Origin: Paracoccaceae bacterium
GTDB taxonomy: Bacteria; Pseudomonadota; Alphaproteobacteria; Rhodobacterales; Rhodobacteraceae
Length of the DNA stretch: 36,250 nt
Reading direction: 5' to 3'
Assembly (NCBI GenBank): GCA_020441385.1
Contig: JAGRMG010000033.1
Span: 1-36,250, forward strand
How positions within the stretch are numbered: position 1 is the first letter of the stretch; each line of letters opens with the position of its first letter. Positions 9,466-35,685 of this stretch are shown here, piece after piece. The notes beneath the pieces are model-generated. The model made no database searches. It was not told where the DNA came from and worked only from the letters and a program-made list of their open reading frames with translations. The translations under genes and the position numbers were made by a program.

Positions 9466-9489
9466 GAGCGTCCTCCAAATCTGAAAGGT

Positions 9490-10834: not shown

Positions 10835-10969
10835 CAATTCACTCCGCAGATCCGGCCCATCGGGGCCCGTTCATCGTCAATGCGCGGACGCGCGCCACCC
10901 CACGTTGCTCGGACGGAGGGGAACAGCTAGACAACGCGGGGGGTCTCGCCTGGCACGCGCCCGCGACGA

Positions 10970-10986
10970 GGCCGGAACGACCGGCC
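10970..10986 (-). other. GC-rich stem-loop just after the capsid gene
   Basis: A perfect inverted repeat, GGCCGG - AACGA - CCGGCC, lies 17-34 nt past the capsid stop codon in the 169-bp gap between gp5 and gp6. No T-run follows on the minus strand, so it is not a standard intrinsic terminator. It could stabilise the capsid end of the transcript or attenuate read-through, giving more capsid than connector. The rest of the gap shows no gene. Confidence 0.4.
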
Positions 10987-11003
10987 CCGCCACCCGGCCC
11001 CGC

Positions 11004-12182: not shown

Positions 12183-12218
12183 CAGCACTTCCTTCCGATG
12201 CGTGACTTTTCGGCGCGG

Positions 12219-12797: not shown

Positions 12798-12810
12798 TGT
12801 CAAAACTCCG

Positions 12811-13038
12811 CTATTGCGCCGCCGCCATGACCGACTGAAAGGCTTGCGCGAGGATCACCCCGGCCACGCCGTAAACGCTCAGCCACAACCGCCGCTCCAG
12901 CCGCTCCATCATCTCCTCCAGCCGGTCCAGCCGCAGGTTCAGATGTTCGTGATGAATCGAACTGACCCGCTCATGCGCCGCCAGCCGCAGCCCGGGCGCG
13001 CAGTCGAACGGCTCGTAGATCCGGCGCTGCTCAGTCAT
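12811..13038 (-). CDS. Small GTA membrane protein between portal and protease genes (g3.5 position)
   Basis: The 75-residue protein has an N-terminal polar segment, a helical coiled-coil stretch rich in Leu/Glu/Arg (LNLRLDRLEEMMERLERR, about 33-51) and one C-terminal transmembrane helix (about 52-72). It would be a tail-anchored inner-membrane protein. A short membrane protein is known at this position in RcGTA-type clusters (orfg3.5), but its role is unclear; prohead docking to the membrane during assembly is a guess. ATG at 13038 overlaps the portal stop codon (ATGACTGA) and has a GGAAGG ribosome site. Confidence 0.8.
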   Translation of the reverse strand: MTEQRRIYEPFDCAPGLRLAAHERVSSIHHEHLNLRLDRLEEMMERLERRLWLSVYGVAGVILAQAFQSVMAAAQ

Positions 13039-14212: not shown

Positions 14213-14413
14213 GCCTCATGCTCCTATCTGTTCGCGCCCGCCACCGGCCGGCCCGCTTCCCAACCCGCATCCCGGCTCCGTTGCGATCCCTTATGCCGCA
14301 AACCTGCCAACAAGCCGCAAACCCACCGCCCGCAGCGAACGCAACGCCCCGCCAGCCGCTTCTTTCTGGTCGCAAATACTCGATTCCCGCGCAGCGGCAC
14401 GTCGCAGCCCCGG
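14213..14413 (-). other. 201-bp gap between large terminase and portal genes
   Basis: No convincing gene is visible. Read on the minus strand it holds two direct copies of GTTTGCGGC about 20 nt apart, followed by the portal ribosome site (AGGAG). The gap is unusually long for this otherwise tightly overlapped operon and could hold an internal promoter or processing site, but no standard promoter was recognised. Confidence 0.3.
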
Positions 14414-15784: not shown

Positions 15785-16037
15785 AGCCCCCCCGAACGAT
15801 TCCCGCCTGTCTGTGTTGTTGCTCGACAAAACGCTCCTCCACGTTCTGGCAGGACCGGATCAGCTTTACCAGCTGCTCCACCTGCCGGTTGCCTCCGGCC
15901 AGATCGGCATCCCCCCCCGCCTCGATCCGCCGCTTCAGGTCTTCCGCCTGCCGCCGCAGATCGCGAACCGAATCCTCAAGCGACCGAAGCAGATCGGCCG
16001 TCCGCGACACCCGCTCATCCGGGGTAATCAAAGTCAT
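15693..16037 (-). CDS. GTA gp1, small terminase subunit (rcc01682 type)
   Basis: The 114-residue protein is the first gene of the GTA operon. It is highly charged and predicted helical, with a heptad-like stretch (TADLLRSLEDSVRDLRRQAEDLKRRIEAG, about 13-42) that should form a coiled coil for oligomerisation. No helix-turn-helix DNA-binding domain is evident, unlike phage small terminases. This fits the known near-random packaging of host DNA by GTAs. ATG at 16037 was chosen over an upstream start at 16106 because sequence before it does not resemble the family. Its 3' end overlaps gp2. Confidence 0.85.
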   Translation of the reverse strand: MTLITPDERVSRTADLLRSLEDSVRDLRRQAEDLKRRIEAGGDADLAGGNRQVEQLVKLIRSCQNVEERFVEQQHRQAGIVRGGYALDLDRARLEIGGRLARLRACADPGGIPE

Positions 16038-19176: not shown

Positions 19177-20202
19177 TCAGCCGCGGATGCGGGCGATCAG
19201 GTCGGGGTCTATGCCCGACTGGTCCCAGGTCGCCAGCGCCAGCTTGCGCCACTCGGCCATCTCGCCTTCATCGGGCGAATAAATCGCCATGCCGTCGGCC
19301 TCCAGCTTGGCCAGGAATTTCTGTTCGACTTCCCGGTCCAGCGCACTGCCCTCGTCCGCCGCGATCTGGGCGGCCTGCATGAACGGATCGCGGATGTCCC
19401 CGGGCATCTCCTCCCAGGTCGCGGCATTGATCACCTGCAACTGACCGACCCAGTTCGAAGGTACCCTCGTGCCGAAACCCAGGATCTCGGCAAAGCCCGC
19501 GATCGAGGTCCAGATCGGTTGCACGAACATGCCGTCGATCACGCCCTGCTGGATGCCGGAATAGCTCTCGCCCCAGGGCAGCGGCGTCGGAATCGCGCCC
19601 CAGCCCGACAGCGTGTTCATGTCGATCACGGCGCCACCAAAGGACGACCGCATCTTGATCCCCTTCAGGTCGGCCGGCGTCTTCACCTCGCGCAGGCGGT
19701 TGCTTATCAGCCGGTAGCCGCCGCCACCGACGATCGGCAGCATCTTCAGCGGCATGTCGGTTTCGGCCCTGGCAAAGCGTTCCATCATCAGATCGGACCT
19801 GACCGATGCCAGCGCCTCGTCCCAGCTCGGATAGAGGAACGGCAGATCCATGAAATGAAAGGCATCGGTAAAGCCGGCGAAGGACGCGGTGGCGTTGCTG
19901 GCGATGTCGAACAGCCCGTTCTGCACGCCTTCCAGCTGGCCCATGTCGCTGGCCAGCTGCGACGAGGGATAGATCTCGATGGTCACATCGACATCGAACT
20001 GCTCGGCCAGGATCTCGGGGATGCGGCGGATCGAGATATCGGTCGGATCGCCCTCGCGGCCGTTCAGGCCGGCAACGATCGGCCGGTCCCAGCCGCGCCG
20101 CCCCTGCGCCCGCAGGATCGACGGCGCCGCCATCGCGCCGGCGCCGATGGCGGCGGCCCCGGCCAGAAAGTCCCGGCGGGACGTTTTGGTTGTCGTTGTC
20201 AT
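19177..20202 (-). CDS. dctP: TRAP transporter substrate-binding protein (DctP family) with Tat signal
   Basis: The 341-residue periplasmic protein binds the substrate for the DctQM permeases. Its N-terminus carries a twin-arginine signal (TSRRDFLAGAAAIGAGAMAAPSILRAQG, Arg9-Arg10), so it is exported folded. The mature protein has the DctP layout: IYPSSQLASDMGQLEGVQNG, FLYPSWDEALAS, then LKGIKMRSSFGG and the SGIQQGVIDGMFVQP segment. ATG at 20202 was preferred over GTG at 20211 because a GGGAG site lies 8 nt upstream. The ligand, probably a carboxylate, cannot be predicted. It follows the PrpD gene by 36 bp. Confidence 0.93.
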   Translation of the reverse strand: MTTTTKTSRRDFLAGAAAIGAGAMAAPSILRAQGRRGWDRPIVAGLNGREGDPTDISIRRIPEILAEQFDVDVTIEIYPSSQLASDMGQLEGVQNGLFDIASNATASFAGFTDAFHFMDLPFLYPSWDEALASVRSDLMMERFARAETDMPLKMLPIVGGGGYRLISNRLREVKTPADLKGIKMRSSFGGAVIDMNTLSGWGAIPTPLPWGESYSGIQQGVIDGMFVQPIWTSIAGFAEILGFGTRVPSNWVGQLQVINAATWEEMPGDIRDPFMQAAQIAADEGSALDREVEQKFLAKLEADGMAIYSPDEGEMAEWRKLALATWDQSGIDPDLIARIRG

Positions 20203-20238
20203 TGTCCTCACTCCCTTGGTTGCGATCGTTCCCGGTCT

Positions 20239-21600
20239 TCATTCGTCCTGAAACAGCGATCCGGCATCAGGCAGGGTGTCGATGGATTGCAGCCGTTCGA
20301 ACAGAATCCGCGCCCGGTGTTCGGCCAGCCCGCTCCACTCGGCGCAGCCCGCGAACTTGCGCCACAGTTCATCCGGCGACAGCGGCGCATCGGCATGCCC
20401 GCTGGCGCGGCGGATCCTGGGGCTTTCGATCCGGCTTCCGTCGCGCATGGTCAGGACGATCCAGTCCTCGGGCGCGGCATTGGGATAGCCGGGGTCGTAG
20501 ATCTCCCCTCGTTCTATCGCCGCCGCGCCGATCAGACGGCGCAGTTCGCCATCGCCGAGCGCCGCCTGCGACACCTCGGCCATGCCGACCTTGCCAAATC
20601 GCAGCGCGGCCGCCACGGCGAACTGGGCGCTGAACTTGGCCTCGGCCGGAATCGCCGGATCGCCAAACGGCATGACGGCGGCGAACTTGCGGCTGATGCG
20701 GATTTCCATGCCCGCGATGTCGGCGGTATCCAGCGGCGTCTGCGCCATCAGCGCCAGGGCGGCGTCGATGATGCGCTGCGAGGCGCCGACGGTCGGGTAT
20801 TTCTTGATGTTCAGCCCGGCCTCGGCCGACCGCCAGCGGCGGCCGAACTGCGGCGGCGTTTTCAGATCGACATTGCCCCTTGGGCTGAGTGCGGCCAGCA
20901 GCCCCGCCGGCCCTTCCAGAACGTCGCCGCGGGCGGTGAACCCGGCGCGGGCCAGCAGCGCGGCGCGCACCCCCGCCTCGGCCGCGCGGCCGGCATGATA
21001 GGGTTTGGCCATAGACCCGAAATTGCCCATCACCCCGCCCGAATGCGACGCCGACAGCGCGATGGCATGGCCCGCGCCCGCGCCGTCCAGCCCCAGCACA
21101 TGCGCGGCCGCCGCGGCGGCGCCGACCGGGCCCAGCACGGCGGTCGGATGCCAGCCCTTGGAATGGAAATGATCGGCCTCGCGCAGCATCAGATCGCCCC
21201 AGATCTCGTAGCCCGCCAGGTAGGCCCGCGCCATGCGCGCCCCGTCTGCGCCCGACACCTGGGCACAGGCCAGGATGGCCGCCACCAGCACCGCGCTGGG
21301 ATGGTTGGAAAACATGTAGTCGTCGTAATCCAGCGCATGCGCGGCGGTGGCGTCGATCAGGGCGGCCAGTTCCGGGGCCGCGCGGCCCCGGCCCAGAAGA
21401 CAGACCGATCCCTTCCCGTCCGATCGGCCCGCCACATAGTCGCGCAGGATGACGCTCACCGGCTCGTCCCGCCCCGCCAGCAGGCAGGCAATCGCGTCGG
21501 TAAAGCCCAGCCGTGCCGTCGACAGCGCCGCCGCCGGGATCGCGGCCGTTGCGATCCCGGCGGCAAAGTCTCCGGCAGCGCGGGTCAGCGGCGCGGTCAT
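20239..21600 (-). CDS. MmgE/PrpD family protein, first copy
   Basis: The 453-residue protein belongs to the MmgE/PrpD family, which includes 2-methylcitrate dehydratase, cis-aconitate decarboxylase and iminodisuccinate epimerase. Conserved segments are AHALDYDDYMFSNHPSAVL, YEIWGDLMLREADHFHSKGWHPTAVLG, GGVMGNFGSMAKPYHAGRAAE and IKKYPTVGASQRIIDAAL. ATG at 21600 overlaps the preceding stop as ATGA; an in-frame start at 21645 is less likely. A close relative is encoded at 27923-29287. The reaction is likely dehydration, decarboxylation or isomerisation of a di- or tricarboxylate, but the exact step is open. Confidence 0.9.
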   Translation of the reverse strand: MTAPLTRAAGDFAAGIATAAIPAAALSTARLGFTDAIACLLAGRDEPVSVILRDYVAGRSDGKGSVCLLGRGRAAPELAALIDATAAHALDYDDYMFSNHPSAVLVAAILACAQVSGADGARMARAYLAGYEIWGDLMLREADHFHSKGWHPTAVLGPVGAAAAAAHVLGLDGAGAGHAIALSASHSGGVMGNFGSMAKPYHAGRAAEAGVRAALLARAGFTARGDVLEGPAGLLAALSPRGNVDLKTPPQFGRRWRSAEAGLNIKKYPTVGASQRIIDAALALMAQTPLDTADIAGMEIRISRKFAAVMPFGDPAIPAEAKFSAQFAVAAALRFGKVGMAEVSQAALGDGELRRLIGAAAIERGEIYDPGYPNAAPEDWIVLTMRDGSRIESPRIRRASGHADAPLSPDELWRKFAGCAEWSGLAEHRARILFERLQSIDTLPDAGSLFQDE

Positions 21601-22526
21601 TGCTGCGCTTTCCAGGCATCGAGGATTTCGCCCCCGGTGGCGCACCAGATGCCGCCCGTCCGGGCCATGTGATCCAGCGTCTGCTCCAGCGCGGCGATGC
21701 GGTGCGGCGCGCCGATCAGCCGTGGATGCAGCGGCAGCGCCAGCAACCGCCCGCCCTTGCGCCCGGCCTCGTCATGCAGGAAGTCGAACGCGTCGATCAG
21801 CTGTTCGGCATAGTCCCAGGCGGGACGCTTGTACTCCTCGATCAGCCGCTGGTCGGACAACTCGAAGCCCAGCGGCATCGCGTGCAAGCCCGCCGCCCCG
21901 CCGGTCATGGCGAACGGCAGTTCGTCGCTCACCCAGTCGCAGGTGTAGTCGAACCCGGCCTCGGCCACCAGGCGCGTCGTATTGCGCGACAACGCGCCGG
22001 CCGGCGCGTACCAGCCGCGCGGCGCGCTCTCCAGAACCCCGGCCAGCGTGTCGCGGGCGCCGATCACAAGCGCGCGTTCATCCTCCTCCGACAGGTGATC
22101 GCCATGCAGATGCCCCATGTCGCGGCCATGCGCGACGATTTCGAATCCCGCCTCCCGGCAATCCCGCGCGAGGGCCGGATAAAGTTCGGCCAGGCGGCTG
22201 GACATGGCGACCGTCGCGGTGAGACCGCGCTCGCGGATCGCCTTGATGACCCTGTAAAGGCCGACGCGGATGCCGTAATCGGCCAGCGTGTAGTTCCAGT
22301 AGTCGGGATAAAGCCGGGCCAGCCCTCCGGGCGGCATGAAGGGCTCGGGCCTGGGGTTCATGTCGAAGGGAAAGAACTCCAGCACCGGCACCAGCCAGAC
22401 GGCCACCCTCGCGCCGCCCGGCCACTCCACCGGCTTGCGGTCGGGCAGAAAGGAGGCCCCGTAAAGGTCGTGATCCTGCCCGCGCTTGCGGCCGGGATAC
22501 TCCAGATAGCCAGGCTCCAGCGTCAT
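21597..22526 (-). CDS. NodB-fold deacetylase-like protein (PuuE/imidase-type), first copy
   Basis: The 309-residue protein has the polysaccharide-deacetylase (NodB) fold but lacks the TFDDG motif of true chitin/xylan deacetylases. It carries instead VEWPGGARVAVWLVPVLEFFPFD, DYGIRVGLYRVIKAIRERGLTATVAMSS, VAHGRDMGHLHG and the GWYAPAGALS strand, the pattern of PuuE-type allantoinases and cyclic-imide hydrolases. It is cytoplasmic (no signal peptide). ATG at 22526 overlaps the stop of its paralog upstream as ATGA. A hydrolase acting on a cyclic amide, imide or ureide is the best guess; the substrate is not known. Confidence 0.85.
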   Translation of the reverse strand: MTLEPGYLEYPGRKRGQDHDLYGASFLPDRKPVEWPGGARVAVWLVPVLEFFPFDMNPRPEPFMPPGGLARLYPDYWNYTLADYGIRVGLYRVIKAIRERGLTATVAMSSRLAELYPALARDCREAGFEIVAHGRDMGHLHGDHLSEEDERALVIGARDTLAGVLESAPRGWYAPAGALSRNTTRLVAEAGFDYTCDWVSDELPFAMTGGAAGLHAMPLGFELSDQRLIEEYKRPAWDYAEQLIDAFDFLHDEAGRKGGRLLALPLHPRLIGAPHRIAALEQTLDHMARTGGIWCATGGEILDAWKAQQ

Positions 22527-24171: not shown

Positions 24172-25377
24172 TCACAATATGCCCTCGTCGCGCAGCGCGG
24201 CGATGTCCTCGGCGCTCAGGCCCAGTTCGCCATAGATCTCGGCATTGTCCTGCCCGGGCGTCTGCGCACCCAGCCATTCGATATCGCCGGGAGTTTCGGT
24301 CAGCTTGGGCGCGATACCCGGCACCGCCAGATCGCCAAAACGCGGGTCGGGGATACGGCGGATCATGTCGCGCGCCCTGAAATGCGGATCGGCCATGATA
24401 TCGGCGATGGAATAGATCGGCCCGTAGACCACGCCGTGCCGGTCCAGCCGGGCCTGCAATTCCCCCGCCGTGAGGGTTCGCGTCCAGTCCGCGATCAGCC
24501 CGTCCAGTTCCTCGGCATGTTCGCCGCGCAACAGATGCGTGGCATAGCGCGGATCGTCGGCCAGTTCCGGGCGGTCCATCGCGGCGCACAATCTGCGGAA
24601 CATCGGGTCGAGATTGGCGGCAATGACGGTCCAGCCGCCATCGCTGGTCGGAAAGCTGTTTGAGGGCGAGACGTTCTTCAGCCCGGTGCCCGACGGTTCG
24701 CGAACGACACCGCACTTGTCATATTCGGCGACCGAACTTTCCAGCATCGAAAAGCAGCTGTCCACGATCGAGGCGTCGACCACCTGGCCCCTGCCGGCGC
24801 CGGCATCGCGCCAGTAGAGCGCCATCAGCAACCCCTCGAAGGCGAACAGCGCGGTCAGCGTGTCTCCCAGCGAGATGCCGAACCGCGGCGAGGGCTGGTC
24901 GGGAAACCCGTTGACATAGCGGATTCCGCCCATCGCCTCGCCGACCGAGGCAAAACCGGGGCGCGCGGCATAGGGGCCGGTCTGGCCGAACCCCGACACC
25001 CGGACGATGACCAGCCCGGGGTTGATCGCGTGCAGCTCCTCGGGGCCCAGGCCCCATTTTTCCAGCGTTCCGGGTTTGAAGTTCTCGATCAGCGCATCGG
25101 CATCGGCCAGCAGCCGGCGCACCAGTTCCTGACCGCGCGCCTCGCGCAGGTTTGCGGTAACGGATTTCTTGTTGCGCGCCAGGATCGGCCACCACAGCCC
25201 CATGTCGTTATAGCGGTTGTGCCCCCAGTTGCGCATCGGATCGCCCGAACCCGGGGTCTCGATCTTGATCACGTCGGCCCCGAAATCCGCGCATCTCGTG
25301 CCGACGAACGGACCGGCCAGAAGCTGGCCCATCTCGACGATCCTGAGACCCGCCAGCGGGCCGGCGCGCTCACTCAT
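24172..25377 (-). CDS. Class III CoA-transferase (CaiB/BaiF/formyl-CoA transferase family)
   Basis: The 401-residue enzyme transfers CoA between carboxylic acids. Family landmarks are LRIVEMGQLLAGPFVG, FGADVIKIETPGSGDP, the KPGTLEKWGLG helix and RVSGFGQTGPYAARPGF. The catalytic aspartate is Asp172 in ISLGDTLTALFAFEGLL, matching Asp169 of formyl-CoA transferase. The length is normal. The start overlaps the 3' end of the hydrolase gene by 8 bp. In the operon it probably activates the transported acid or an intermediate as a CoA thioester, setting up cleavage by a lyase of the HMG-CoA-lyase type encoded in the neighbouring operon. Confidence 0.93.
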   Translation of the reverse strand: MSERAGPLAGLRIVEMGQLLAGPFVGTRCADFGADVIKIETPGSGDPMRNWGHNRYNDMGLWWPILARNKKSVTANLREARGQELVRRLLADADALIENFKPGTLEKWGLGPEELHAINPGLVIVRVSGFGQTGPYAARPGFASVGEAMGGIRYVNGFPDQPSPRFGISLGDTLTALFAFEGLLMALYWRDAGAGRGQVVDASIVDSCFSMLESSVAEYDKCGVVREPSGTGLKNVSPSNSFPTSDGGWTVIAANLDPMFRRLCAAMDRPELADDPRYATHLLRGEHAEELDGLIADWTRTLTAGELQARLDRHGVVYGPIYSIADIMADPHFRARDMIRRIPDPRFGDLAVPGIAPKLTETPGDIEWLGAQTPGQDNAEIYGELGLSAEDIAALRDEGIL

Positions 25378-26185
25378 TGTCCTCGACCTCCTTCAGGAAC
25401 CCCAGCACCGCATCCGAGAACCGCCCGCGCATCTCCTTTCCGGCAACCACATGCGCCGCCCCCTCGAGCACCAGGCCGCGGGCACCGGGTATCGCCCGTT
25501 CGATCGGTACCGTCAGGCGCGGCCCGTTCACCGTATCCAGCGGACAGTGAATGATCAGCGTGGGCGCGACGATCTGACCCAGGCGGTCCGTGGTGTCATG
25601 GCCCAGACACGCCTCGATCAGCCTGGCATGCGCCTCATAGCGGCCGTTCAGTTCGCTCCACGGGCCTTGCGGACCCAGCAGGCGCCGGTGGTTTTGCAGA
25701 TAGAACCGCTCTTCGAACGACCACAGGCAGACGAGTTTCTGAAACGCCTCCCAGCCCATGATCCGGTGACAGTCGCGAAACATTTCCAACTGGTGGCGCA
25801 ACAGGGCGTCGGGTTTGCTCCAGGTGTTCATGTTGATCATGGAGCGCACCAGGTCGGGGCGGTTGATCGCCATTTCCTGGGCGATGCAGGCGCCCATGCC
25901 AACCAGACCGACCACATGCACCCGCTCGAGGCCGAGCCGATCAAGCAACCCGGCGGCATCCTCGGCATAAAGCCGCATCGAGGGTGGAACCGAAAGATCG
26001 TCGCCCGACGCGGCCAGGCCGCGATGATCGAAGATGATCGCGCAATAGCGATCGGTCAGGCCGCGCGCCAGGTGGTGATGGCCGCCGTGACAATAGCTGC
26101 CCCAGCCGCCCATGCACAAAACCGGCGGGCCATCGCCGTGAACCTCATAGTACATGTCATGGCCGTTGATCTGCAGGCTGGGCAT
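25370..26185 (-). CDS. Alpha/beta-hydrolase fold protein with an altered nucleophile elbow
   Basis: The 271-residue protein has the alpha/beta-hydrolase fold: MYYEVHGDGPPVLCMGGWGSYCH (oxyanion region), IIFDHRGLAASGDD, and later the acid Asp217 (CPLDTVNG) and His245 (EGAAHVVAG). The nucleophile elbow, normally G-x-S-x-G, reads VVGLVGMGACIAQE (92-104), with no serine, and the elbow residue is most simply Gly. The acid and histidine remain. It may therefore be inactive as a hydrolase, bind a ligand, or use different chemistry. ATG at 26185 with a GGGAG site was chosen over a longer start at 26314. It is the first gene of the ten-gene operon. Confidence 0.85.
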   Translation of the reverse strand: MPSLQINGHDMYYEVHGDGPPVLCMGGWGSYCHGGHHHLARGLTDRYCAIIFDHRGLAASGDDLSVPPSMRLYAEDAAGLLDRLGLERVHVVGLVGMGACIAQEMAINRPDLVRSMINMNTWSKPDALLRHQLEMFRDCHRIMGWEAFQKLVCLWSFEERFYLQNHRRLLGPQGPWSELNGRYEAHARLIEACLGHDTTDRLGQIVAPTLIIHCPLDTVNGPRLTVPIERAIPGARGLVLEGAAHVVAGKEMRGRFSDAVLGFLKEVEDNE

Positions 26186-26425
26186 GCCGCGCTCCCGAAT
26201 TCGGCTGCGCCAACGGCCCGCCGGCAAGGGCGGCGGCGCTGACTTTCCGGTCTTGGTCAAGGCAGGATCGAATACAAAATTTCCAAAGTCAAGCGACGTG
26301 AAGCCACCGAACACCAGACTTTCGGATCCTGGATTACATCAGTGCAACCGGGTAATTTCATGATAAAACTTATATTTATACGGCATTTCGCCGTTCGCTC
26401 AGCGCGGTCGCGGAATGTCGAACCT

Positions 26426-26454
26426 TTGGCTGGAAGTGCGTGATTGTGTACGAT
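26426..26454 (+). promoter_or_regulatory. Promoter-like element of the YrdC-GntR-PrpD operon
   Basis: A -35-like TTGGCT at 26426-26431 is separated by 17 bp from a -10-like TACGAT at 26449-26454. The -10 box lies inside the operator-like site at 26443-26454, so a bound regulator would block RNA polymerase. The predicted start is about 50 nt before the YrdC-like ATG. Hexamer scores are modest. Confidence 0.45.
26443..26454. promoter_or_regulatory. GntR-type operator-like site 1
   Basis: The sequence ATTGTGTACGAT is nearly identical to the sites at 31500-31511 and 31635-31646 and resembles the GTATAC-centred palindromes bound by GntR/FCD-family regulators. It overlaps the likely -10 box of the plus-strand operon that encodes the GntR regulator itself, suggesting autoregulation, and may also serve the divergent operon. 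Confidence 0.65.
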
Positions 26455-26511
26455 ACTCTGCGACACGACTTGCCGCGAATCGACGGCGAATGCAGACGGG
26501 ACCGGACGACA

Positions 26512-27189
26512 ATGACAGCAGAGGCCGACGCAGAACGCATATTCCGGACCGTCTCGCGGGGCGGCGTCGCGGTGTTCGGCGTCGATGTCGGCTATGCCAT
26601 CGTCGGCCATGGCGGCGACGCCATCGCGCGGATCTTCGCGATCAAGCAGCGCAGTTTCGCCAAGCCTTGCGGCTGCTTCGGCAATTGGGAGATGTTCGAA
26701 CAGATCATCGACGCCGATGCCCGGGCGCGCAGGTTCGTCTCGGCGGTCATCCATGACCACGGCTTGCCGCTGTCGATCGTCGGGCGCTTCCGGCCCGATC
26801 ATCCCATCCTGGCCAATGCGCCGGACTTCACCCGCCGGCACGCCACCAAGGGTGGTACGATGGATCTGCTGATGAACGCCGGCGCGCGCCACGACGCGCT
26901 GGCCGCGCTGGCGCTCGAACACGGCATCGGCGTGTTCGGATCGTCCGCCAACATGTCGCTGGGCGGCAGCAAATACGCCTTCGAAGATGTCGAACCGGCG
27001 GTGCGCAGCGGCGCCGATCTGGCGCTCGATTGCGGCGCCACGCGGTATTCGCACCCGCAAGGGCTGGGATCGACCATAATCGATATGGACAGCATGCGGC
27101 CCTTCCGGATCGGCATCGCGTTCGACGATATCCGCCGCATCGCCGCAACGGAATGTGGTATGGACATACCCGGCCAGGTGATCCGATGA
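26512..27189 (+). CDS. YrdC/Sua5 (TsaC-like) domain protein of unknown substrate
   Basis: The 225-residue protein has the YrdC fold, known for making threonylcarbamoyl-AMP in tRNA modification. It keeps the nucleotide-binding KQRSFAKP motif (45-52), SSANMS (144-149) and the terminal GST-type strand (GLGSTIID). The N-terminal T-x-T-x-YGL motif of TsaC is replaced by GVDVGYAIVG, and the middle of the protein does not match the usual PGPxTLIL segment. It is therefore probably a paralog with a different carbamoyl- or adenylate-type substrate, not the housekeeping enzyme. ATG at 26512 was chosen over 26440 because the operator and promoter lie between them. It is the first gene of the operon with gntR and prpD. 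Confidence 0.75.
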   Translation: MTAEADAERIFRTVSRGGVAVFGVDVGYAIVGHGGDAIARIFAIKQRSFAKPCGCFGNWEMFEQIIDADARARRFVSAVIHDHGLPLSIVGRFRPDHPILANAPDFTRRHATKGGTMDLLMNAGARHDALAALALEHGIGVFGSSANMSLGGSKYAFEDVEPAVRSGADLALDCGATRYSHPQGLGSTIIDMDSMRPFRIGIAFDDIRRIAATECGMDIPGQVIR

Positions 27190-27229
27190 TGAACGCGGCC
27201 CGGCCGGGCACGCAAACAGGCGAATCCCG

Positions 27230-27895
27230 ATGAATGCATCCGAACAGGCGTATCATTTCGTCAAGAACGCCATTCTGTCGGTCGAATACCCGTCGGGCAG
27301 CCGCCTGCCCGAAGAGCAGATCGCGACCGAACTCGGGGTCTCGCGCACGCCGGTGCGCGATGCGCTGCGGCGCCTGCAATCCGAGGGTCTGATCGAATTC
27401 ATCCCCAACGCCGGGGCGCGTGTGGCGTCCTGGGGGGTCTCCGAACTGACCGAAACGACGCATATGCGCAGCTTTCTCGAAGGCTATGCCGCCGAACTGG
27501 CGGCGCAGAAGATCACCGCCTCGGAGCTGGCCGGGCTGGAGGATTCGACCGCCCTGATGGAGGCCGCCGCCCGCCGAACCGGCACGCCGGACCTTGAGGC
27601 GGTCAGCGAAGCCAACCTGTGCTTTCACCGCCAGATCGCCGAAGCGGCGCGCAACTCGCATCTGCTGACCGCGATCAACCCGCTGTGGCACTACCCGCTG
27701 GTGATCCGCAAATTCGCCCTGTTCAACCCCGAACGCCTTGAGTTGAGCATCCGGCATCACCGCGAGATCCTGGCGGCGCTGACGGTCGGGGATGCGAACT
27801 GGGCCGGGGCGATCATGCGCGCGCATATCCATTCGGCCCGCCCGTTCGACCGTCAGCTGACGGCGAACGATGCCGGCGGATCCGCGGGAACCTGA
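27230..27895 (+). CDS. GntR family transcriptional regulator, FCD subfamily
   Basis: The 221-residue regulator has an N-terminal winged helix-turn-helix (about 1-70, LPEEQIATELGVSRTPVRDALRRLQSEGLIEFIPNAGARV) and a C-terminal FCD ligand domain. Likely metal ligands are Asn129, His133, His177 and His199 (the last two in HHREIL and MRAHIH). Such regulators usually repress catabolic operons until an acid or CoA metabolite binds. ATG at 27230 overlaps the stop codon of a 15-codon mini-ORF, suggesting translational coupling. It most likely controls the neighbouring operons through the GTATAC-like sites described separately. Confidence 0.93.
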   Translation: MNASEQAYHFVKNAILSVEYPSGSRLPEEQIATELGVSRTPVRDALRRLQSEGLIEFIPNAGARVASWGVSELTETTHMRSFLEGYAAELAAQKITASELAGLEDSTALMEAAARRTGTPDLEAVSEANLCFHRQIAEAARNSHLLTAINPLWHYPLVIRKFALFNPERLELSIRHHREILAALTVGDANWAGAIMRAHIHSARPFDRQLTANDAGGSAGT

Positions 27896-27922
27896 GATTT
27901 CACCGCAAAGGGAACCGCCCGC

Positions 27923-29287
27923 ATGGGACAGCTGACCGAAAGCCTGGTGCGGTTCATCGAGGAAATGCCCGCCCGCACCATGCCCGACGGCGCCGGCGAT
28001 GTCGTCGGCACCGGGTTCTGCGATGCCATCGGCGTCATGATCGCCGGGCTGGGTGAACCGGTGCATCGGGCCGCCCTCGCGGCGGTGCACGAACGCGCCA
28101 GCCGGCCCGAGGCACGGATCGCGCTGGGCGCGCAACGCTGCGCCACGTCCGACGCGGCCATGGTCGGTGTCGTTGCCGCACACGCGCTGGATTACGACGA
28201 TTACGCGTTTTCCAACCATGTCAGCGCGGTTCTGGTCCCCGCGATCCTGGCCGAGGCCGAACATCTCGGTGCCGATGGCGCCATGATGGTACGCGCCTAT
28301 GTGGCAGGCTACGAGGTCTGGCGCGTGCTGATGAAACGCGAACCTGACGATTTCTATGCCCGCGGCTGGCATCCGACCGCCGTGCTGGGCGGCTTCGGCG
28401 TGGTCGCGGCGATATCGGTGCTGCATCGCCTGGACGCCCCGCGCATCCGCAACGCGCTGGGTCTGGCGGTGGCGCAGGGCGGCGGCGTGATGGCGAATTT
28501 CGGCTCCATGGCAAAGCCGTTTCAGGGCGGCCACGCGGCGCAGGGCGGCATTGCGTCGGTTCGCCTGGCACTGGCGGGAATGGATGCGGGCGTCGATGCG
28601 CTGGATGGCGAGAACGGCTTGCTCATGGCGCTGTCGCCCGAACGCCGGATCGACGCAACGACTCCGGCCGACACGCTGGGCCGCGATTGGGGCATCCTGG
28701 ACGAGCGGCTGAACATCAAGCGCTACCCCACCGTGGGCGCATCCCAGCGCAGCGCCGATTGCGCGGTGCAGATCCATCATGCCCATGCCCCCCGAATTGC
28801 AGGGATCGCGCGAATTCGCGCCCATATCAGCGAGAAACACGACCGCGTCATGCCGATCCACGCGCCGCAGACCGCGCTCGAGGCCAAGTTCAGCCTGGAA
28901 TTCGCCGTCGCCGCGGGCCTGATCGCGGGCGAGGTCGGGTTCGCGCAGCTGACCGACGCCTTCGTGCGGCGCGACGACGTGCAGGCGCTGATGCGCCGGA
29001 TCGAACGAGTCGTCGGCCCCGATGACGACCCGGAGTTTTCCGCCGGTGCGCGGGCCGACATCGTGCATCTGGACATGGCCGACGGGCGGGTGATCTCCGG
29101 CCCCGAGGTGACGCGGTGGCGTGGCCACGCCCGCAACCCGATGACCGCGGACGAACTGAAGGCAAAGTTCATGGATTGCGCCGCACGGCGGATCGGAACC
29201 GCCGAGGCAGGCGCGCTGTTCGATCAGATGCGCGCAATAGCCGCGCTGCGCTCGGTTCGGGATATTCCCGTGATTGCGCCGCGCTGA
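27923..29287 (+). CDS. MmgE/PrpD family protein, second copy
   Basis: The 454-residue protein is a close relative of the one at 20239-21600, sharing AHALDYDDYAFSNHVSAVLVPAIL, AGYEVW, DDFYARGWHPTAVLGG, GGVMANFGSMAKPF and IKRYPTVGASQRSADCAV. Both have the normal family length and no signal peptide. It follows gntR by 27 bp and ends 9 bp before the convergent amidase gene. Divergence is highest in the C-terminal half, so the two copies may act on different isomers or steps. Confidence 0.9.
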   Translation: MGQLTESLVRFIEEMPARTMPDGAGDVVGTGFCDAIGVMIAGLGEPVHRAALAAVHERASRPEARIALGAQRCATSDAAMVGVVAAHALDYDDYAFSNHVSAVLVPAILAEAEHLGADGAMMVRAYVAGYEVWRVLMKREPDDFYARGWHPTAVLGGFGVVAAISVLHRLDAPRIRNALGLAVAQGGGVMANFGSMAKPFQGGHAAQGGIASVRLALAGMDAGVDALDGENGLLMALSPERRIDATTPADTLGRDWGILDERLNIKRYPTVGASQRSADCAVQIHHAHAPRIAGIARIRAHISEKHDRVMPIHAPQTALEAKFSLEFAVAAGLIAGEVGFAQLTDAFVRRDDVQALMRRIERVVGPDDDPEFSAGARADIVHLDMADGRVISGPEVTRWRGHARNPMTADELKAKFMDCAARRIGTAEAGALFDQMRAIAALRSVRDIPVIAPR

Positions 29288-29296
29288 AATCGCGCC

Positions 29297-30583
29297 TCAG
29301 CGCGCCCCGACGACCGGCGCGACCGCTTCGGCCACCGCCAGCAGCGCGGCATCGGCCAGTCGCGGCGCGACGATCTGCACGCCGACCGGCAATCCGTTCG
29401 GCCCCGTCGCGGCAGGCAGCGTGATGCAGGGGCCGTGCATCGCGGTCCACATCCGGTTGAAGATCGCCTCGCCCGTGGACAACAGCCCGACCGGCGCCTC
29501 GCCGATCACCGATGGCGTCAGCCACGCATCGTATCCGGCAAAGGCATCGTCAAAGGCCATGGTCCCCCGCGCGATCAGGTTCGCAGCCCGGCGCACATCG
29601 TCGTGGCTGCGCCCCTTCGTGTTTTCCACCTCGTCGCGGAATTTCGGGTGCAGATCGGCATAGCGCCCGAGATATTCGGCGCGGTAGGCGCCCCGCCCCT
29701 CCCAATGCATGATCACGTCCTGCGCGTCGGTAAGCGCGTCAAAGACCTGCGGGCCCTGAACGTCGGCCAGCGCGGCGCCCGCACCCGCCAGCGCCTGCGC
29801 CGCCCGCTCGATCGCGGATACGGTTTCCGGTGCCGCCCGGTCCCAGTGCGGCCCGCGGAACACGCCGATGCGCAGCGCCCCCGGATCGGGCGGCGCGGCG
29901 GCGGAGTCGATGACGCCCAGCGCCCGAGCCGTCAGCGTCAGATCGGCGGCGGACCGGCCGAAGAATCCGATCGTGTCCAGCGATTGCGAATAGACCTTGG
30001 TACCCTCGGTCGAAATCAGGCCATAGCTGGGTTTCATGGCGTGGGCGCCGCAGAACGACGCCGGCCGGATCACCGATCCGCCGGTCTGGGTGCCCAGTGC
30101 GACCGGCACCTGCCCGTCGCCGACCGCCGCCCCCGACCCGCTGGACGACCCGCCCGGGGTGCGGGTGGTGTCATGCGGATTCGCGGTGGCGGCGGTGCGA
30201 CCGTGGGATGCGAATTCCACCGTGTCGAGCTTGCCCAGAATGACCGCCCCGGCGCTGCGCAGGATCGACACGCAGGCCGCATCGCGCGCCGGGCGGAACC
30301 CGGAATAAAGCGGTGAATTGTACTGTGTCGGCATGTCGCCGGTGTCGATCATGTCCTTGATGCCGACCGGAACGCCGTGCAACGGGCCGCGCACCGGCCC
30401 GTCATCGCAGGCCCGCGCCTGCGCCATCGCCAGTGCCGGATCGAGGAACGCCCAGGCCCGCACCGCCGGATCGCGTTCGGCGATCCGGTCGAGGCAGGAG
30501 CGGACCAGTTCGGCGCTGGTCAACTCCCCCCGCGCAATGGCCGCGGCGGCCAAGGCCGCGGAAAGGTCGCAGGGTCGGGTCAT
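29297..30583 (-). CDS. Amidase signature family enzyme
   Basis: The 428-residue enzyme hydrolyses an amide to acid and ammonia. The catalytic Ser-cisSer-Lys triad is visible: Lys76 in VGIKDMIDT, Ser146 in the GGSSSGSGAAV loop and the nucleophile Ser170 in GTQTGGSVIRPASFCG. The spacing of Ser146 and Ser170 (24 residues) equals that in known amidases. The protein lacks GatA's glutaminase partners, so it is a stand-alone amidase. Its start overlaps the VOC gene stop as ATGA. It could act on a half-amide product of imide ring opening. Confidence 0.93.
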   Translation of the reverse strand: MTRPCDLSAALAAAAIARGELTSAELVRSCLDRIAERDPAVRAWAFLDPALAMAQARACDDGPVRGPLHGVPVGIKDMIDTGDMPTQYNSPLYSGFRPARDAACVSILRSAGAVILGKLDTVEFASHGRTAATANPHDTTRTPGGSSSGSGAAVGDGQVPVALGTQTGGSVIRPASFCGAHAMKPSYGLISTEGTKVYSQSLDTIGFFGRSAADLTLTARALGVIDSAAAPPDPGALRIGVFRGPHWDRAAPETVSAIERAAQALAGAGAALADVQGPQVFDALTDAQDVIMHWEGRGAYRAEYLGRYADLHPKFRDEVENTKGRSHDDVRRAANLIARGTMAFDDAFAGYDAWLTPSVIGEAPVGLLSTGEAIFNRMWTAMHGPCITLPAATGPNGLPVGVQIVAPRLADAALLAVAEAVAPVVGAR

Positions 30584-31479
30584 GTCGCACTGTCCTCATG
30601 CGCGCCGGCCGTATCGCGGCCGCGCGAATTCGCCCCCAGAAACTCGACGATAACACCGCCGGCACGATCCGGCGAGGCCCAGATGCGGTCTTCGCCCGAA
30701 GTGGCCGCGATACCGGCGGCGTCGAGAAACGCGGCGCTCTGGCCCGGATCGCGGCTGTGCACGGCGAATGCGGCCAGCCAGGGCAGGCCGGGCGCCGTGA
30801 CGCCGGGAAACCGGGCGGCCAGACCGGCGGCGTCCAGCATCCGCACCTGCACGGCGCCGGCATCGACGATCCATTCGCCGTCACCGGGGCGGGCCTGCGA
30901 ACCGACGATGTCGCCAAGCCGGCGGGCCGTCTCCTGCGGCCGCTCGCAGCACAGGCTGAGCGATGCCAGCCCGCAGGCGCCGTTGGGATGGTCGTTCAGC
31001 GCGGGATCGAACACCAGATCGCGATCCAGATGTTCGACCTCGCACAGGAACGCCTCGGGGAACTCGGCCTCGGGTATGCGGAACCAGCGGAACCGGGCCA
31101 GCCCCGACCCGCCGGGATAGGACACATGCCGGCCGGCCAGCGCCGGGGCCGGCGCCAGGCTGCCCCCGCGCTTCAGGCGGGCCTGCTGCGCATCCGCGTC
31201 CGCGGTTCGCAACACCACGATATGCAGCCCCCAATAGCGCGCGATGGCATCGCGCAGATGATGCGCCGAGCGATCGCCCCGAACCGCCGTCAGTTCGACA
31301 TAGCTATCGCCGAACACCAGATGGCTGTTGACCTGGCCCATCGGGGTCGCGCCCCCGTTTTCGTCCAGCGCCACCAACTCGCACCGGGGCGCCACGCGAA
31401 AGCCAAGCCGGCCGAACGCGGCTTCCAGCGCATCCAGGTCCGGCCCGACGATTCCGATATGGTCCAGTTCAGCGGTCAT
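30580..31479 (-). CDS. VOC/glyoxalase-like domain protein
   Basis: The 299-residue protein starts with a VOC module (MTAELDHIGIVGPDLDALEAAFGRLGFRVAPR, residues about 1-130) and has a second, more diverged half ending in a long strand region (VIVEFLG). It matches the Glyoxalase-like (PF13468-type) family. The first conserved His7 and Glu/His candidates suggest a metal site, but the full set cannot be confirmed. The ATG at 31479 lies only 21 bp from operator site 2. The amidase gene follows with a 4-bp overlap, making a two-gene operon. Function is unknown; an isomerase, epimerase or dioxygenase of the pathway is possible. Confidence 0.75.
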   Translation of the reverse strand: MTAELDHIGIVGPDLDALEAAFGRLGFRVAPRCELVALDENGGATPMGQVNSHLVFGDSYVELTAVRGDRSAHHLRDAIARYWGLHIVVLRTADADAQQARLKRGGSLAPAPALAGRHVSYPGGSGLARFRWFRIPEAEFPEAFLCEVEHLDRDLVFDPALNDHPNGACGLASLSLCCERPQETARRLGDIVGSQARPGDGEWIVDAGAVQVRMLDAAGLAARFPGVTAPGLPWLAAFAVHSRDPGQSAAFLDAAGIAATSGEDRIWASPDRAGGVIVEFLGANSRGRDTAGAHEDSAT

Positions 31480-31499
31480 GCCCGGGGCTTTGTCTCATT

Positions 31500-31511
31500 A
31501 TTGTATACGAT
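31500..31511. promoter_or_regulatory. GntR-type operator-like site 2
   Basis: The sequence ATTGTATACGAT lies 21 bp upstream of the VOC/amidase operon. On the minus strand it contains TACAAT, a good -10 match, so a bound regulator would block transcription. It is identical in 11 of 12 positions to site 1 (26443) and in 11 of 12 to site 3 (31635). Confidence 0.7.
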
Positions 31512-31623
31512 TACGGTACCGACGCCCGTGCGCCGATGATTCGCAGGCTATCGCGTTGCACCAATTGCAATCAAGATAATAGTTCATGTATCACGCCGAC
31601 GCATAATGGGTGTCCCAACGGAC

Positions 31624-31655
31624 TTGACGGGCAGATTGTATACGTTATTGATATT
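31624..31655 (+). promoter_or_regulatory. Promoter of the second TRAP operon
   Basis: A good -35 box, TTGACG, at 31624-31629 is followed after 16 bp by a weak -10 candidate TATTGA (31646-31651), or after 20 bp by GATATT (31650-31655). Operator site 3 fills the spacer. The leader to the dctP start is roughly 60-70 nt and includes a GGAGGG ribosome site at about 31711. Confidence 0.5.
31635..31646. promoter_or_regulatory. GntR-type operator-like site 3
   Basis: The sequence ATTGTATACGTT sits between the -35 and -10 regions of the second TRAP operon, the classical repressor position. Together with site 2 it makes the 243-bp divergent region (31480-31722) the control point for both the VOC/amidase and TRAP/lyase operons. 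The rest of that region shows no gene. Confidence 0.7.
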
Positions 31656-31722: not shown

Positions 31723-32790
31723 ATGAAACGCATTTCACGGCAGTTGCAGGCCGCATTGGGCGCGCTCGCATTTCTGTTCGCCCCGGCGCATGCCGCCGAA
31801 TACGAATGGAAGATGGCGACCATCGCGCCGGAAAACAGCTTTGTCTTCGACATCTTCGCCAAGGGCTTTACCGAACGCGTCGAGGAATATTCCGGCGGCC
31901 GGATCAAGATCACGGCCTACGGCGCGGGGGTTCTGGCGCATCCCTTCAAGATTTACGAGGCGGTGCAGGACGGCACCGTCGACATCGGCTGGAGCTATGC
32001 CGGCTTTCTGGTGAATGCCGATCCGACCAACGCGATGTTCTCGGGCTTTCCCGGCGGCATGGGGCCCGAACCGTTCATGCACTGGTACTACATGGGCGGC
32101 GGCCAGCAGCTCTACGAGAATCTGCGTCGCGAGAAGATGGGGCTTCAGGGCTTTTATACCGGGCAGGGCACGACCGAGATCTTCGCGCATTCGCACAAGC
32201 CCATTCGCACGCGCGAGGATCTGAAAGGCTACAAGCACCGCACCACGGGCGCCTGGGCGGCGATCCTGAAGGATCATTTCGACGGCGCCCCCACCGTGAC
32301 CGAATTCGGCGAGATCTACGGCATGTTGCAGCGCAAGGCCATCGACGGCGTCGAATATGCCGGCCCGGGCGGCAACCTGGCGCTGGGCTATCACGATGTG
32401 GCCAAATATATCATCCTCCCCGGGGTGCATCAGCCGGGCACCATGACCGAGATGTTCATGAAGGCCGAAACCTTCGACGCGCTGCCCCCCGACCTTCAGC
32501 ACATCATGAAGGAAGCGGCCAAGATGACCGTGTTCAACACGTATCTCGCGCTCGGCAACCAGGACCAGGAGGCGATGGAGGTCTATCGCTCGGGCAACAA
32601 CGAGATCGTGATGATGGAGCCGGAACTGGTGGCCGAGATCAAGGCCGCCGGGCGCGACTGGATCGAGGCCGAGGCGGCGAAGATGACCGACGAGGGCAAG
32701 CCGTGGATGGCCGAGATCTGGGCCAGCTACAAGGCGTATCAGGACACCTGGGCGAAAAACGCCTTCACCCGCACCTGGGACGTCGAGTAG
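31723..32790 (+). CDS. dctP: TRAP transporter substrate-binding protein (DctP family), second system
   Basis: The 355-residue periplasmic protein has a Sec-type signal (MKRISRQLQAALGALAFLFAPAHA, cleavage near residue 25), unlike the Tat signal of the first system. Family landmarks are ENSFVFDIFAKGFTERVEEYSGGRIKI, GAGVLAHPFKIYEAVQDGTVDIGWSYAG, and later IYGMLQRKAIDGVEYAGPGGNL. ATG at 31723 has a strong GGAGGG site. It shows low resemblance to the first DctP, so the two systems probably bind different ligands. It is the first gene of dctPQM-lyase. Confidence 0.93.
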   Translation: MKRISRQLQAALGALAFLFAPAHAAEYEWKMATIAPENSFVFDIFAKGFTERVEEYSGGRIKITAYGAGVLAHPFKIYEAVQDGTVDIGWSYAGFLVNADPTNAMFSGFPGGMGPEPFMHWYYMGGGQQLYENLRREKMGLQGFYTGQGTTEIFAHSHKPIRTREDLKGYKHRTTGAWAAILKDHFDGAPTVTEFGEIYGMLQRKAIDGVEYAGPGGNLALGYHDVAKYIILPGVHQPGTMTEMFMKAETFDALPPDLQHIMKEAAKMTVFNTYLALGNQDQEAMEVYRSGNNEIVMMEPELVAEIKAAGRDWIEAEAAKMTDEGKPWMAEIWASYKAYQDTWAKNAFTRTWDVE

Positions 32791-32847: not shown

Positions 32848-33384
32848 ATGATCGCTAAAGCCGCCAGACTGGCCGACGGATTATCGCTCTGGGTCGGGCG
32901 CATCGGCATGGCCCTGATCGCCGCGCTGGTTGTCGTCGTCTTCTACGAGGTCTTCGCCCGCTATGCGCTGGGGGCGCCGACAGTGTGGGCCTACGACCTG
33001 ACCTACATGATGAACGGCACCATCTTTCTTCTGGGCTCGGGCCTGGCCCTGTCCAAGAACCTGCATGTCAGGATAGATTTCCTGTCCTCGCGAATGCCGG
33101 TCCGAATTCAGCACCTGGTGAATTTCCTGTCCTACGTCCTGTTGCTGCTGCCGGTCTTCGCCATCCTGACGCATCAGGCATTCCGCAAGGCATGGAAGGC
33201 GTATCTGACCGGAGAGCTGGAACCGGTCAGCGTCTGGGCGCCGGTGATCTGGCCGTTCATGGCCGGTATCGCGCTGGGGCTGGGCTGCCTGCTGGTGCAG
33301 ATGCTGGCCGAAACGGCGCGGCACGGGCTGGGCATGGCCGATCCCGCGGCCGTGCGCGGCCCCGGTGAGTCCGATGACCACTGA
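32848..33384 (+). CDS. dctQ: TRAP transporter small permease (DctQ family), second system
   Basis: The 178-residue protein has four hydrophobic helices (about 15-38, 50-68, 85-110 and 130-155) and the family pattern VVVVFYEVFARYALGAPTVWAYDLTYMMNGTIFLLGSGLALSKNLHVRIDF. It is the membrane partner of the following DctM protein. It lies 57 bp after dctP, the gap containing the stem-loop, and 18 bp before dctM. Confidence 0.92.
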   Translation: MIAKAARLADGLSLWVGRIGMALIAALVVVVFYEVFARYALGAPTVWAYDLTYMMNGTIFLLGSGLALSKNLHVRIDFLSSRMPVRIQHLVNFLSYVLLLLPVFAILTHQAFRKAWKAYLTGELEPVSVWAPVIWPFMAGIALGLGCLLVQMLAETARHGLGMADPAAVRGPGESDDH

Positions 33385-33402
33385 GCCGCAGGGATACGGG
33401 GC

Positions 33403-34725
33403 ATGAGCGGCGGGTTGCTGGCGGCGCTGATGTTTCCGGCGCTTTTCGCGCTGATCTTTCTGGGCATTCCCGTATCCTTCAGCCTGGCGGGCGTCGCGTT
33501 CCTGTTCGGCATCGGGGTTTTCGGCGACGTCATCGGCGCGGTGTTCTACGACCGGCTTCTGGGGGTTTCGACCGCCTCCACCCTGGCCGCCGTGCCGCTG
33601 TTCGTGTTCATGGGCGCGGTACTGGAACGCTCGGCCATCGCCGAACGCCTGTTCCGGGTGATGCAGGTCTGGTTCGGGTTCATGCCCGGCGGCCTGGGTA
33701 TCGCGGCGATCACCATGAGCGCGGTCTTTGCCGCCGCCACCGGCATCATCGGCGCCGTCGAGGCGGTGATCGGCATGATGGCGATCCCGGCGATGATGAA
33801 GCTGGGCTATGACAGGGGCCTGATCTCGGGCACCATCTGTGCCGGCGGATCGCTGGGCACGATCATTCCGCCGTCGATCGTCGTCATCATCTATGCGTCG
33901 CTGGCCGAACTGTCCATCGGCGCGCTGTTTGCCGGCATCATGATCCCCGGGGGGCTGATGGTCGCGCTGTTCATCCTCTATATCGCCGGGCGCGCCTGGC
34001 TGCGCCCGCAGGACGGCCCGCCGGCACCGCGCGAGGTCTATGCGATCCCGTTGCGCCAGAAACTGGTCGTCACCGTACAGGGCCTGGTGCCCGCGGTCCT
34101 GCTGGTCGCGGCCGTGCTGGGCGCCATCCTGGGCGGCATCGCCTCGCCCACGGAATCGGCTTCGGTCGGGGCGGTGGGCGCCATGTTGCTGACGCTCTTA
34201 TATCGCGAATTCAGCCTGAAAGTGCTGCGCGAAAGCCTGACCAAGACGCTGACCGTGACCGCCATGGTGATGATGATCGTGGTCGGCGGCACGATGTTTT
34301 CCAGCGTCTTCCTGGTGATCGGCGGCGGCTCGCTGATCCGGGACACGGTGGCGAGCCTGCAACTGGGCCCGGCCGGCATGGTCGCCCTGTTCCTGTTCAT
34401 CGTGTTCCTTCTGGGTTTCGTCCTGGACTGGATCACCGTGGTGCTGATCTGCCTGCCGATCTTCCTGCCGTTGCTGCGCGGCGCCGGCGTCGATCAGATC
34501 TGGTTCGCGGTGATGATGACGGTCGTGATCCAGACCGCCTATCTGACCCCGCCGATGGCGCCCGCGGTGTTCTATCTGCGCACCATCGCGCCACCCGAGA
34601 TCACCTATCGCGACATGTATCTGGGGGTTGCGCCCTTCGTCGCGCTCGAGGCCATCGTGCTGGCCATCGTCGCGCTGGTCCCGGCCACCGCCACCTATCT
34701 GCCATCGGTCCTCATCGGGTTCTGA
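33403..34725 (+). CDS. dctM: TRAP transporter large permease (DctM family), second system
   Basis: The 440-residue membrane protein has about a dozen hydrophobic helices and the DctM motifs AATGIIGAVEAVIGMMAIPAMM and AGGSLGTIIPPSIVVIIYASLAELSIGALFAGIMIPG. The second half carries LDWITVVLICLPIFLPLL and TPPMAPAVFYLRTIAP. ATG at 33403 follows dctQ by 18 bp with a GGGG ribosome site. It would import the ligand of the second DctP. Confidence 0.94.
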   Translation: MSGGLLAALMFPALFALIFLGIPVSFSLAGVAFLFGIGVFGDVIGAVFYDRLLGVSTASTLAAVPLFVFMGAVLERSAIAERLFRVMQVWFGFMPGGLGIAAITMSAVFAAATGIIGAVEAVIGMMAIPAMMKLGYDRGLISGTICAGGSLGTIIPPSIVVIIYASLAELSIGALFAGIMIPGGLMVALFILYIAGRAWLRPQDGPPAPREVYAIPLRQKLVVTVQGLVPAVLLVAAVLGAILGGIASPTESASVGAVGAMLLTLLYREFSLKVLRESLTKTLTVTAMVMMIVVGGTMFSSVFLVIGGGSLIRDTVASLQLGPAGMVALFLFIVFLLGFVLDWITVVLICLPIFLPLLRGAGVDQIWFAVMMTVVIQTAYLTPPMAPAVFYLRTIAPPEITYRDMYLGVAPFVALEAIVLAIVALVPATATYLPSVLIGF

Positions 34726-34746: not shown

Positions 34747-35685
34747 ATGAACGTGAACGAGGTCTATCCGCCGGATCGCGTCGCCCTGCGCGAGGTCGGT
34801 CTGCGCGACGGGCTGCAACTGGTCGGCTCATGGCCCGGCACGGCGGCCAAAGGCGAATGGGTCCGGCGCGAAGGCGCCGCGGGCGTGCGCTGGTTCGAGA
34901 CCGGATCGTTCCTGCCCGCCGGCACGTTTCCCCAGTTCGCCGACGTGCGGCAGGTGGTCGATGCGGTCCGCGATGCCGGCGCCCACGGCATCGGGCTGGT
35001 GCTGAACGAACGCGGCGCCGAGGCGGCCATCGCCAGCGGCGTGCCGGAACTGGCCTGCGTGGTCTCGGCAACCGAAACCCACAGCCGGGCCAACGTGCGC
35101 CGCAGCGTCGCCGAGTCCATCGCGGTGGCCGCCCATGCCTGCGCCCTGCGCGACGCCGCCCCGCACCGGCCGCTGGTCTCGGCCACCATCGGCATGAGCC
35201 TTGGCTGTTCGATGACCGGCACCGTCGCGGCGGCCGATGTCCTGAGCATCGCCGAAAGGCTGTTTCACGCCGGGGTCGACCTGGTGACGCTGGCCGACAC
35301 GGTCGGATATGCCGGGCCGGCCGAGGTCGGGGCGCTGGTCCGGGCGGTGCGCCCCATCGCCGGTTCCCGGCCGCTGGCGGTGCATCTGCACGATACCCGG
35401 GGCCTGGGGCTGGCCAACGCCGCCGCCGCGCTGGATGCGGGCATTCGCATACTCGACGCATCGCTGGGCGGGCTGGGCGGCTGCCCCTTCGCGCCGGGGG
35501 CGACCGGCAACATCGTGATGGAGGATCTGGCATTCCTGTGCGAAAAGCAGGGCTTCGCGACCGGGATCGACCTCGAGGCGCTGTGCGCGACACGCGCCAT
35601 CCTGGCCGACGAGATGCCGAATGAGCGTCTCCATGGCGGGCTGGCGCGGTCGGGACTGCCGCTGGGATTTTCCGGCGCCGGGTAG
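34747..35685 (+). CDS. HMG-CoA lyase family enzyme
   Basis: The 312-residue TIM-barrel lyase resembles hydroxymethylglutaryl-CoA lyase, which splits a 3-hydroxyacyl-CoA into an acyl-CoA and a keto acid. All catalytic residues have counterparts: Arg20-Asp21 (EVGLRDGLQ), Glu51, the metal-binding pair His213/His215 (VHLHDTRG), Cys246 in GGLGGCPFAPGATGN and Asn255. The signature Pro-Arg-Asp is Leu-Arg-Asp here and the usual Asn-Glu after Gln is missing, so the substrate may differ from HMG-CoA. It follows dctM by 21 bp. With the CoA-transferase it suggests a thioester-lyase route. Confidence 0.9.
   Translation: MNVNEVYPPDRVALREVGLRDGLQLVGSWPGTAAKGEWVRREGAAGVRWFETGSFLPAGTFPQFADVRQVVDAVRDAGAHGIGLVLNERGAEAAIASGVPELACVVSATETHSRANVRRSVAESIAVAAHACALRDAAPHRPLVSATIGMSLGCSMTGTVAAADVLSIAERLFHAGVDLVTLADTVGYAGPAEVGALVRAVRPIAGSRPLAVHLHDTRGLGLANAAAALDAGIRILDASLGGLGGCPFAPGATGNIVMEDLAFLCEKQGFATGIDLEALCATRAILADEMPNERLHGGLARSGLPLGFSGAG

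Follow-up and report, generated by a model that had tools for sequence, protein, structure and literature searches.

Predicted operators of a local VanR-type FCD/GntR regulator in two divergent control regions of a catabolic locus from a Paracoccaceae bacterium

Several gene units of unusual enzymatic content lie around two divergent control regions in the 36,250-nucleotide stretch of Paracoccaceae DNA analyzed here (the window), and the locus raises the question of whether they answer to a single regulator encoded between those regions. A sequence-only reading had proposed that three matching GTATAC-type operators define such a regulon. Our analysis makes it very likely that a single, locally encoded VanR-type FCD/GntR regulator (27230-27895) has four sites, O0 to O3, as its operators, through which it would repress four units. 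The genes concerned are the following:

24172-25377, minus strand: family III CoA-transferase (CaiB), second gene of the predicted ten-gene operon
25370-26185, minus strand: alpha/beta hydrolase, first gene of the predicted ten-gene operon (start re-assigned to ATG 26185)
26512-27189, plus strand: diverged Sua5/YrdC-like protein, first gene of the O1 unit (Pfam, 2e-07)
27230-27895, plus strand: GntR/FCD (VanR-type) regulator (Pfam GntR and FCD; alignment to 6z74/Atu1419)
27923-29287, plus strand: MmgE/PrpD family protein, O1 unit (YrdC-like/GntR/PrpD)
29297-30583, minus strand: amidase, second gene of the O2 unit
30580-31479, minus strand: VOC (Glyoxalase_3) protein, first gene of the O2 unit
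31723-32790, plus strand: TRAP solute-binding protein DctP, first gene of the O3 unit
32848-34725, plus strand: TRAP small and large permeases DctQ and DctM
34747-35685, plus strand: HMG-CoA-lyase-like enzyme, with homologues that adjoin related GntR genes in relatives

The three proposed sites are indeed present, and a weaker fourth site, O0, had been overlooked:

26267-26278, minus strand: O0, candidate fourth operator, TTTGTATTCGAT, ahead of the ten-gene operon
26443-26454, plus strand: O1, predicted operator, ATTGTGTACGAT, upstream of the YrdC-like/GntR/PrpD unit and overlapping a putative -10 element, TACGAT
31500-31511, plus strand: O2, predicted operator, ATTGTATACGAT, 21 bp ahead of where the VOC/amidase unit (minus strand) starts
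31635-31646, plus strand: O3, predicted operator, ATTGTATACGTT, between TTGACG (31624-31629) and TATTGA (31646-31651), before the TRAP/lyase unit

Their description as GTATAC-type holds for O2 and O3, which share the core GT-AT-AC, but not for O1, which reads GT-GT-AC; in O0 the core is GT-AT-TC, the A of AC being absent. Centre to centre, O0 and O1 lie 176 bp apart (region 26267-26454) and O2 and O3 135 bp apart (region 31500-31646).

AT-rich 12-mers in two AT-rich promoter regions might resemble one another by chance, and an equally similar triple was found in 163/3000 shuffles of the two control regions. The resemblance of the 12-mers is therefore weak when taken alone, and we rejected it as a proof of the regulon in its own right, since shuffled sequence yields such triples in about 5% of cases. 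What speaks against chance is that the sites share the very motif one would predict for regulators of this class: the 10-base motif TTGTATACAA, which was derived from relatives and the literature and hence independently of the window sites, has four sites matching at 8/10 or more in the two regions versus 0.17 expected (shuffle fraction 0.0004). The sequence-only reading had itself named a motif common at random genomic sites as the outcome that would count against it. When the whole genome was scanned (273 contigs, 3,714,602 bases), however, ATTGTRTACGWT had just three exact matches, all of them in the window and identical with O1, O2 and O3, as expected from the claim that the sites are confined to the two divergent control regions. 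Allowing one mismatch added eight places elsewhere, 8/8 of them within long open reading frames. The looser pattern WTTGTRTWCGWT, which takes in O0, occurs at eight places, four in the two intergenic control regions and four inside open reading frames elsewhere; it was picked after O0 had been seen, so that its count describes rather than tests. A common predicted operator is thus found in the promoter regions of the units rather than scattered over the genome. The case for operators is built on this genome-wide uniqueness together with the match to an independently known motif, and a chance resemblance appears very improbable.

The position of the sites relative to promoters was said to be one of overlap in each case, a description that survives in part. 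By eye, TTGGCT-N17-TACGAT (26426-26454) is a plausible promoter that overlaps O1, and TTGACG-N16-TATTGA (31624-31651) is another that overlaps O3, but O2 covers a TACAAT without a clear -35 element, and a strict sigma-70 consensus scan returned no promoter in either control region. O0 lies 7 bp downstream of TTGACT (26291-26286, minus strand). Some GntR proteins activate transcription, and the regulator might accordingly activate rather than repress some of the units. Against this, O1, O2 and O3 lie over or between likely -10 and -35 elements as judged by eye, which is the position of a repressor and that of the Atu1419 sites described below; we therefore regard activation as improbable.

The longest open reading frame of the hydrolase (25370-26314) contains O0, and it appears to be over-long at its start. 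The pattern typical of coding sequence is missing from its first 43 codons (GC at the three codon positions 0.58/0.60/0.67, as against 0.68/0.43/0.80), and a GGGAG lies 6 bp before ATG 26185, so that the gene very probably starts at ATG 26185 and not at 26314. Because of this start, O0 would belong to the operon's promoter region, although it is inside the longest reading frame, and the predicted ten-gene operon therefore has a candidate operator of its own. The earlier suggestion that this operon probably also belongs to the regulon has gained support from the site. Two reading frames of the predicted operon (416 and 324 amino acids; 19268-21619, minus strand) have no Pfam or NCBIfam match.

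That a GntR/FCD regulator is encoded between the control regions was borne out by Pfam matches at 27230-27895 to PF00392 (GntR, 8.3e-18) and PF07729 (FCD, 1.4e-25), both above the curated cut-offs; an N-terminal GntR winged helix followed by a C-terminal FCD domain places the protein in the FCD (FadR) subfamily. A search of solved structures matched it (2.2e-17) to Atu1419, a VanR-type FCD/GntR protein of Agrobacterium fabrum that controls hydroxycinnamate degradation (PDB 6z74 and 6za0-6zab; PMC7797058). The two proteins have in common an SRTPVR recognition helix (residues 38-43 of the window regulator) and an N/H/H/H metal site: the putative ligands N129, H133, H177 and H199 align with the Atu1419 zinc ligands N137, H141, H192 and H214, in keeping with the Asn/Asp plus three His of VanR-type proteins, and R39, T40, R43 and E28 align with the DNA-contacting R45, T46, R49 and E34. 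The Atu1419 operator is the 10-bp ATGTATACAT, in which G3 and C8 are essential, and its palindromes lie over -10 boxes, with one between the -10 and -35 elements in a divergent region (PMC7797058). G3 and C8 are likewise kept in 4/4 of the window sites, which resemble the Atu1419 sites in lying on a likely -10 element or between likely -10 and -35 elements and in numbering two per divergent region. The Atu1419 operators are perfect palindromes, whereas the window sites are imperfect in the right half (ACGA). Atu1419 is a tetramer that can loop 190 bp of DNA (PMC7797058).

A comparative study of the FadR subfamily described operators made up of TKGT/ACMA boxes separated by 2 or 3 nt; at the K position a G/C pair is avoided when residue 40 of the helix-turn-helix is Pro, and A/T is favoured, albeit without significance, when residue 59 is Asn (PMC4494728). 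The window regulator has Pro at 40 and Asn at 59 in a hand alignment, consistent with TTGT rather than TGGT, and its predicted operators have the left half-site TTGT, which fits the consensus, and the right half-site ACGA, which departs from ACMA by one base. They conform to the subfamily pattern NyGT-N2/3-ACNy with a 2-nt gap between GT and AC in O1 to O3, O0 lacking the A of AC. In common with the systems of that study, the window thus has A/T-rich TKGT/ACMA palindromes with a 2-nt gap, as well as divergent double sites that are each near their own operon.

The sites might instead serve another FCD/GntR paralogue, or several, with the window regulator acting on a different target. Seven other FCD/GntR-type genes are present in the genome, several of them encoding an SRTP recognition helix. 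Two of these paralogues have GTATAC palindromes of their own upstream, GTGTATACAC at L102:6525 (C10) and CTGTATACGG at L101:9609 (C250), which makes cross-binding the main alternative where the identity of the regulator is concerned. The paralogue sites differ in their flanking bases, however, and ATTGTRTACGWT occurs nowhere else in the genome; moreover, the two control regions flank the window regulator, whose own promoter region holds O1, and an operator adjoining the regulator gene is common among relatives. We consider a paralogue an improbable owner of the sites, though a slightly better candidate than activation, and continue with the local regulator.

The genus is represented by this genome only, and comparisons were made at the level of family and class. 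A search for related loci returned a single distant locus (28%). In the gene tree the nearest rows by path are mostly lyase-linked, and no starred clade holds the window regulator. Identity to the relatives examined is 30-44%, and the wing reads PNAGARVA versus the GYSTRVA type of lyase-linked relatives. Nine of the closest family regulators have next to them an HMG-CoA-lyase-like gene and, in the opposite orientation, one for a CaiB CoA-transferase; both kinds of enzyme are also encoded in the window. In eight non-redundant divergent CoA-transferase/lyase-GntR promoters, TGTATACA was the best of 256 palindromic 8-mers (8 mismatches in total, against 14 for the next best palindrome) and tied for best among all 65,536 8-mers; none of 400 shuffles held a palindrome as good. 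A TTGTATACAA-like site lies at most 150 bp upstream of the regulator gene in 26/45 relatives or, with the genome's own paralogues included, in 27/52 cases; shuffled sequences gave 1.4 on average and 5 at most. The same motif thus recurs at the promoters of related regulators and of homologous enzymes, in line with the earlier statement that the class binds palindromes of this kind. Loci L080, L115, L157 and L162 have a homologous regulator (30-44%), lyase (37-41%) and CoA-transferase (52-55%, a match that the window CaiB also finds at the divergent promoter of many relatives), with TGTATACA operators in a divergent promoter common to lyase and CoA-transferase. Among class-level relatives, ATGTATACAT and TTGTATACAT lie 157 bp apart in this promoter in L157 and L158, and TTGCATACAA and TTGTATGCAA 62 bp apart in L162. 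The window differs in that its lyase and CoA-transferase belong to separate units and its operators are spread over two control regions.

A ranking motif built from fifteen sites of relatives, with no window sites, bears on whether the regulator acts at all four places. O2 and O3 ranked 1st and 2nd in the window (17.8 and 16.0), 26266-26279, which holds O0, ranked 3rd (11.0), and O1 ranked 5th, the weakest of the four (9.5); the scores of O0 and O1 are near chance, about 2.75 matches at or above O1's score being found per shuffled window. O2 and O3 might therefore be real and O1 and O0 chance matches. O1 nevertheless agrees with O2 at 11/12 bases, both weak sites lie in the promoter regions where the relatives' arrangement predicts them, namely those of the CoA-transferase operon and the regulator unit, and such matches are rare elsewhere in the genome, where they are coding matches. 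In addition, Atu1419 binds a palindrome conserved at 8/10 bases (PMC7797058). Action at O2 and O3 alone thus seems unlikely to us, if less so than a paralogue. The points that weigh against control of all four sites by the local regulator are its modest identity to relatives, its place in the gene tree outside any starred clade, its differing wing, the paralogues with GTATAC-type sites of their own, the near-chance scores of O0 and O1 and the empty strict promoter scan.

From the position of the sites and from homology we infer the following mechanism of repression. Two operators per divergent control region, O0 with O1 and O2 with O3, would receive a dimer or tetramer that blocks RNA polymerase at four units, because each operator overlaps or falls within the likely promoter of the unit it precedes. 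These would be the ten-gene operon (hydrolase, CoA-transferase and others), the YrdC-like/GntR/PrpD unit, through which the regulator would control its own gene by way of O1, and the VOC/amidase and TRAP/lyase units. The regulator may leave the DNA, and uptake and breakdown be turned on together, when a carboxylate, either an intermediate or the substrate, binds near the FCD metal site, and the spacing of the paired sites would allow DNA looping if the regulator is a tetramer like Atu1419. Such a mechanism is ordinary and the arrangement of a known type. Its interest is that four transcription units, two TRAP permease sets and an unusual set of enzymes would be tied to one switch, so that the substrate can be sought as whatever frees the regulator from O2 and O3; the motif is also a prediction for relatives in which lyase and CoA-transferase have one divergent promoter. 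Literature searches for the literal operator strings together with GntR, and for GntR together with a lyase and TRAP, found nothing.

As to what the regulon is for, we offer tentatively the possibility of an undescribed route of cyclic amide or imide breakdown, in which the diverged YrdC-fold protein would be a catabolic enzyme, rather than one of tRNA modification, alongside PuuE-like hydrolases, the amidase, CoA-transferase, lyase and PrpD. The YrdC-like protein scores 28.9 bits against the t6A synthase model TIGR00057, far below the cut-off of 123.2, and may be catabolic. Most of the window's enzyme set is also found around a similar divergent promoter in L115, from the same family, where YrdC-like, CoA-transferase, lyase, GntR, two PuuE-like, VOC and PrpD genes surround one such promoter; genes for an isochorismatase-like hydrolase and a MetNIQ-like transporter are interspersed among these. 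Strong homologues of the YrdC-like protein (among them L115:9425-10123 and those in L145-L154) are found in 26/385 genomes of the class, this one included; in several cases their neighbours are genes for PrpD, CoA-transferase or lyase, and sometimes two YrdC-like genes form a divergent pair.

A separate observation concerns the lyase genes of the family relatives. In 8/10 of those beside a GntR gene (L080, L085, L086, L091, L092, L095, L098 and L115), the Ile of the RDG(I)QNE motif near the gene start is encoded by ATA, a codon otherwise rare in them (6 among 130 other Ile codons; Fisher p 4e-8); lyase homologues outside that set have Leu at this residue where readable. The context spells GG(N)ATACA(A/G)AA, which resembles an operator, either a half-site or a full one, within the coding sequence. 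In the window itself, the catabolic genes directly adjoin a Rhodobacter-type gene transfer agent cluster (about 1974-15829, minus strand) that comprises terminase, portal, prohead protease, capsid, DUF2460, Gp84-like and NlpC/P60 genes and a gene for a 1307-amino-acid GTA_TIM/Rcc01698 protein.
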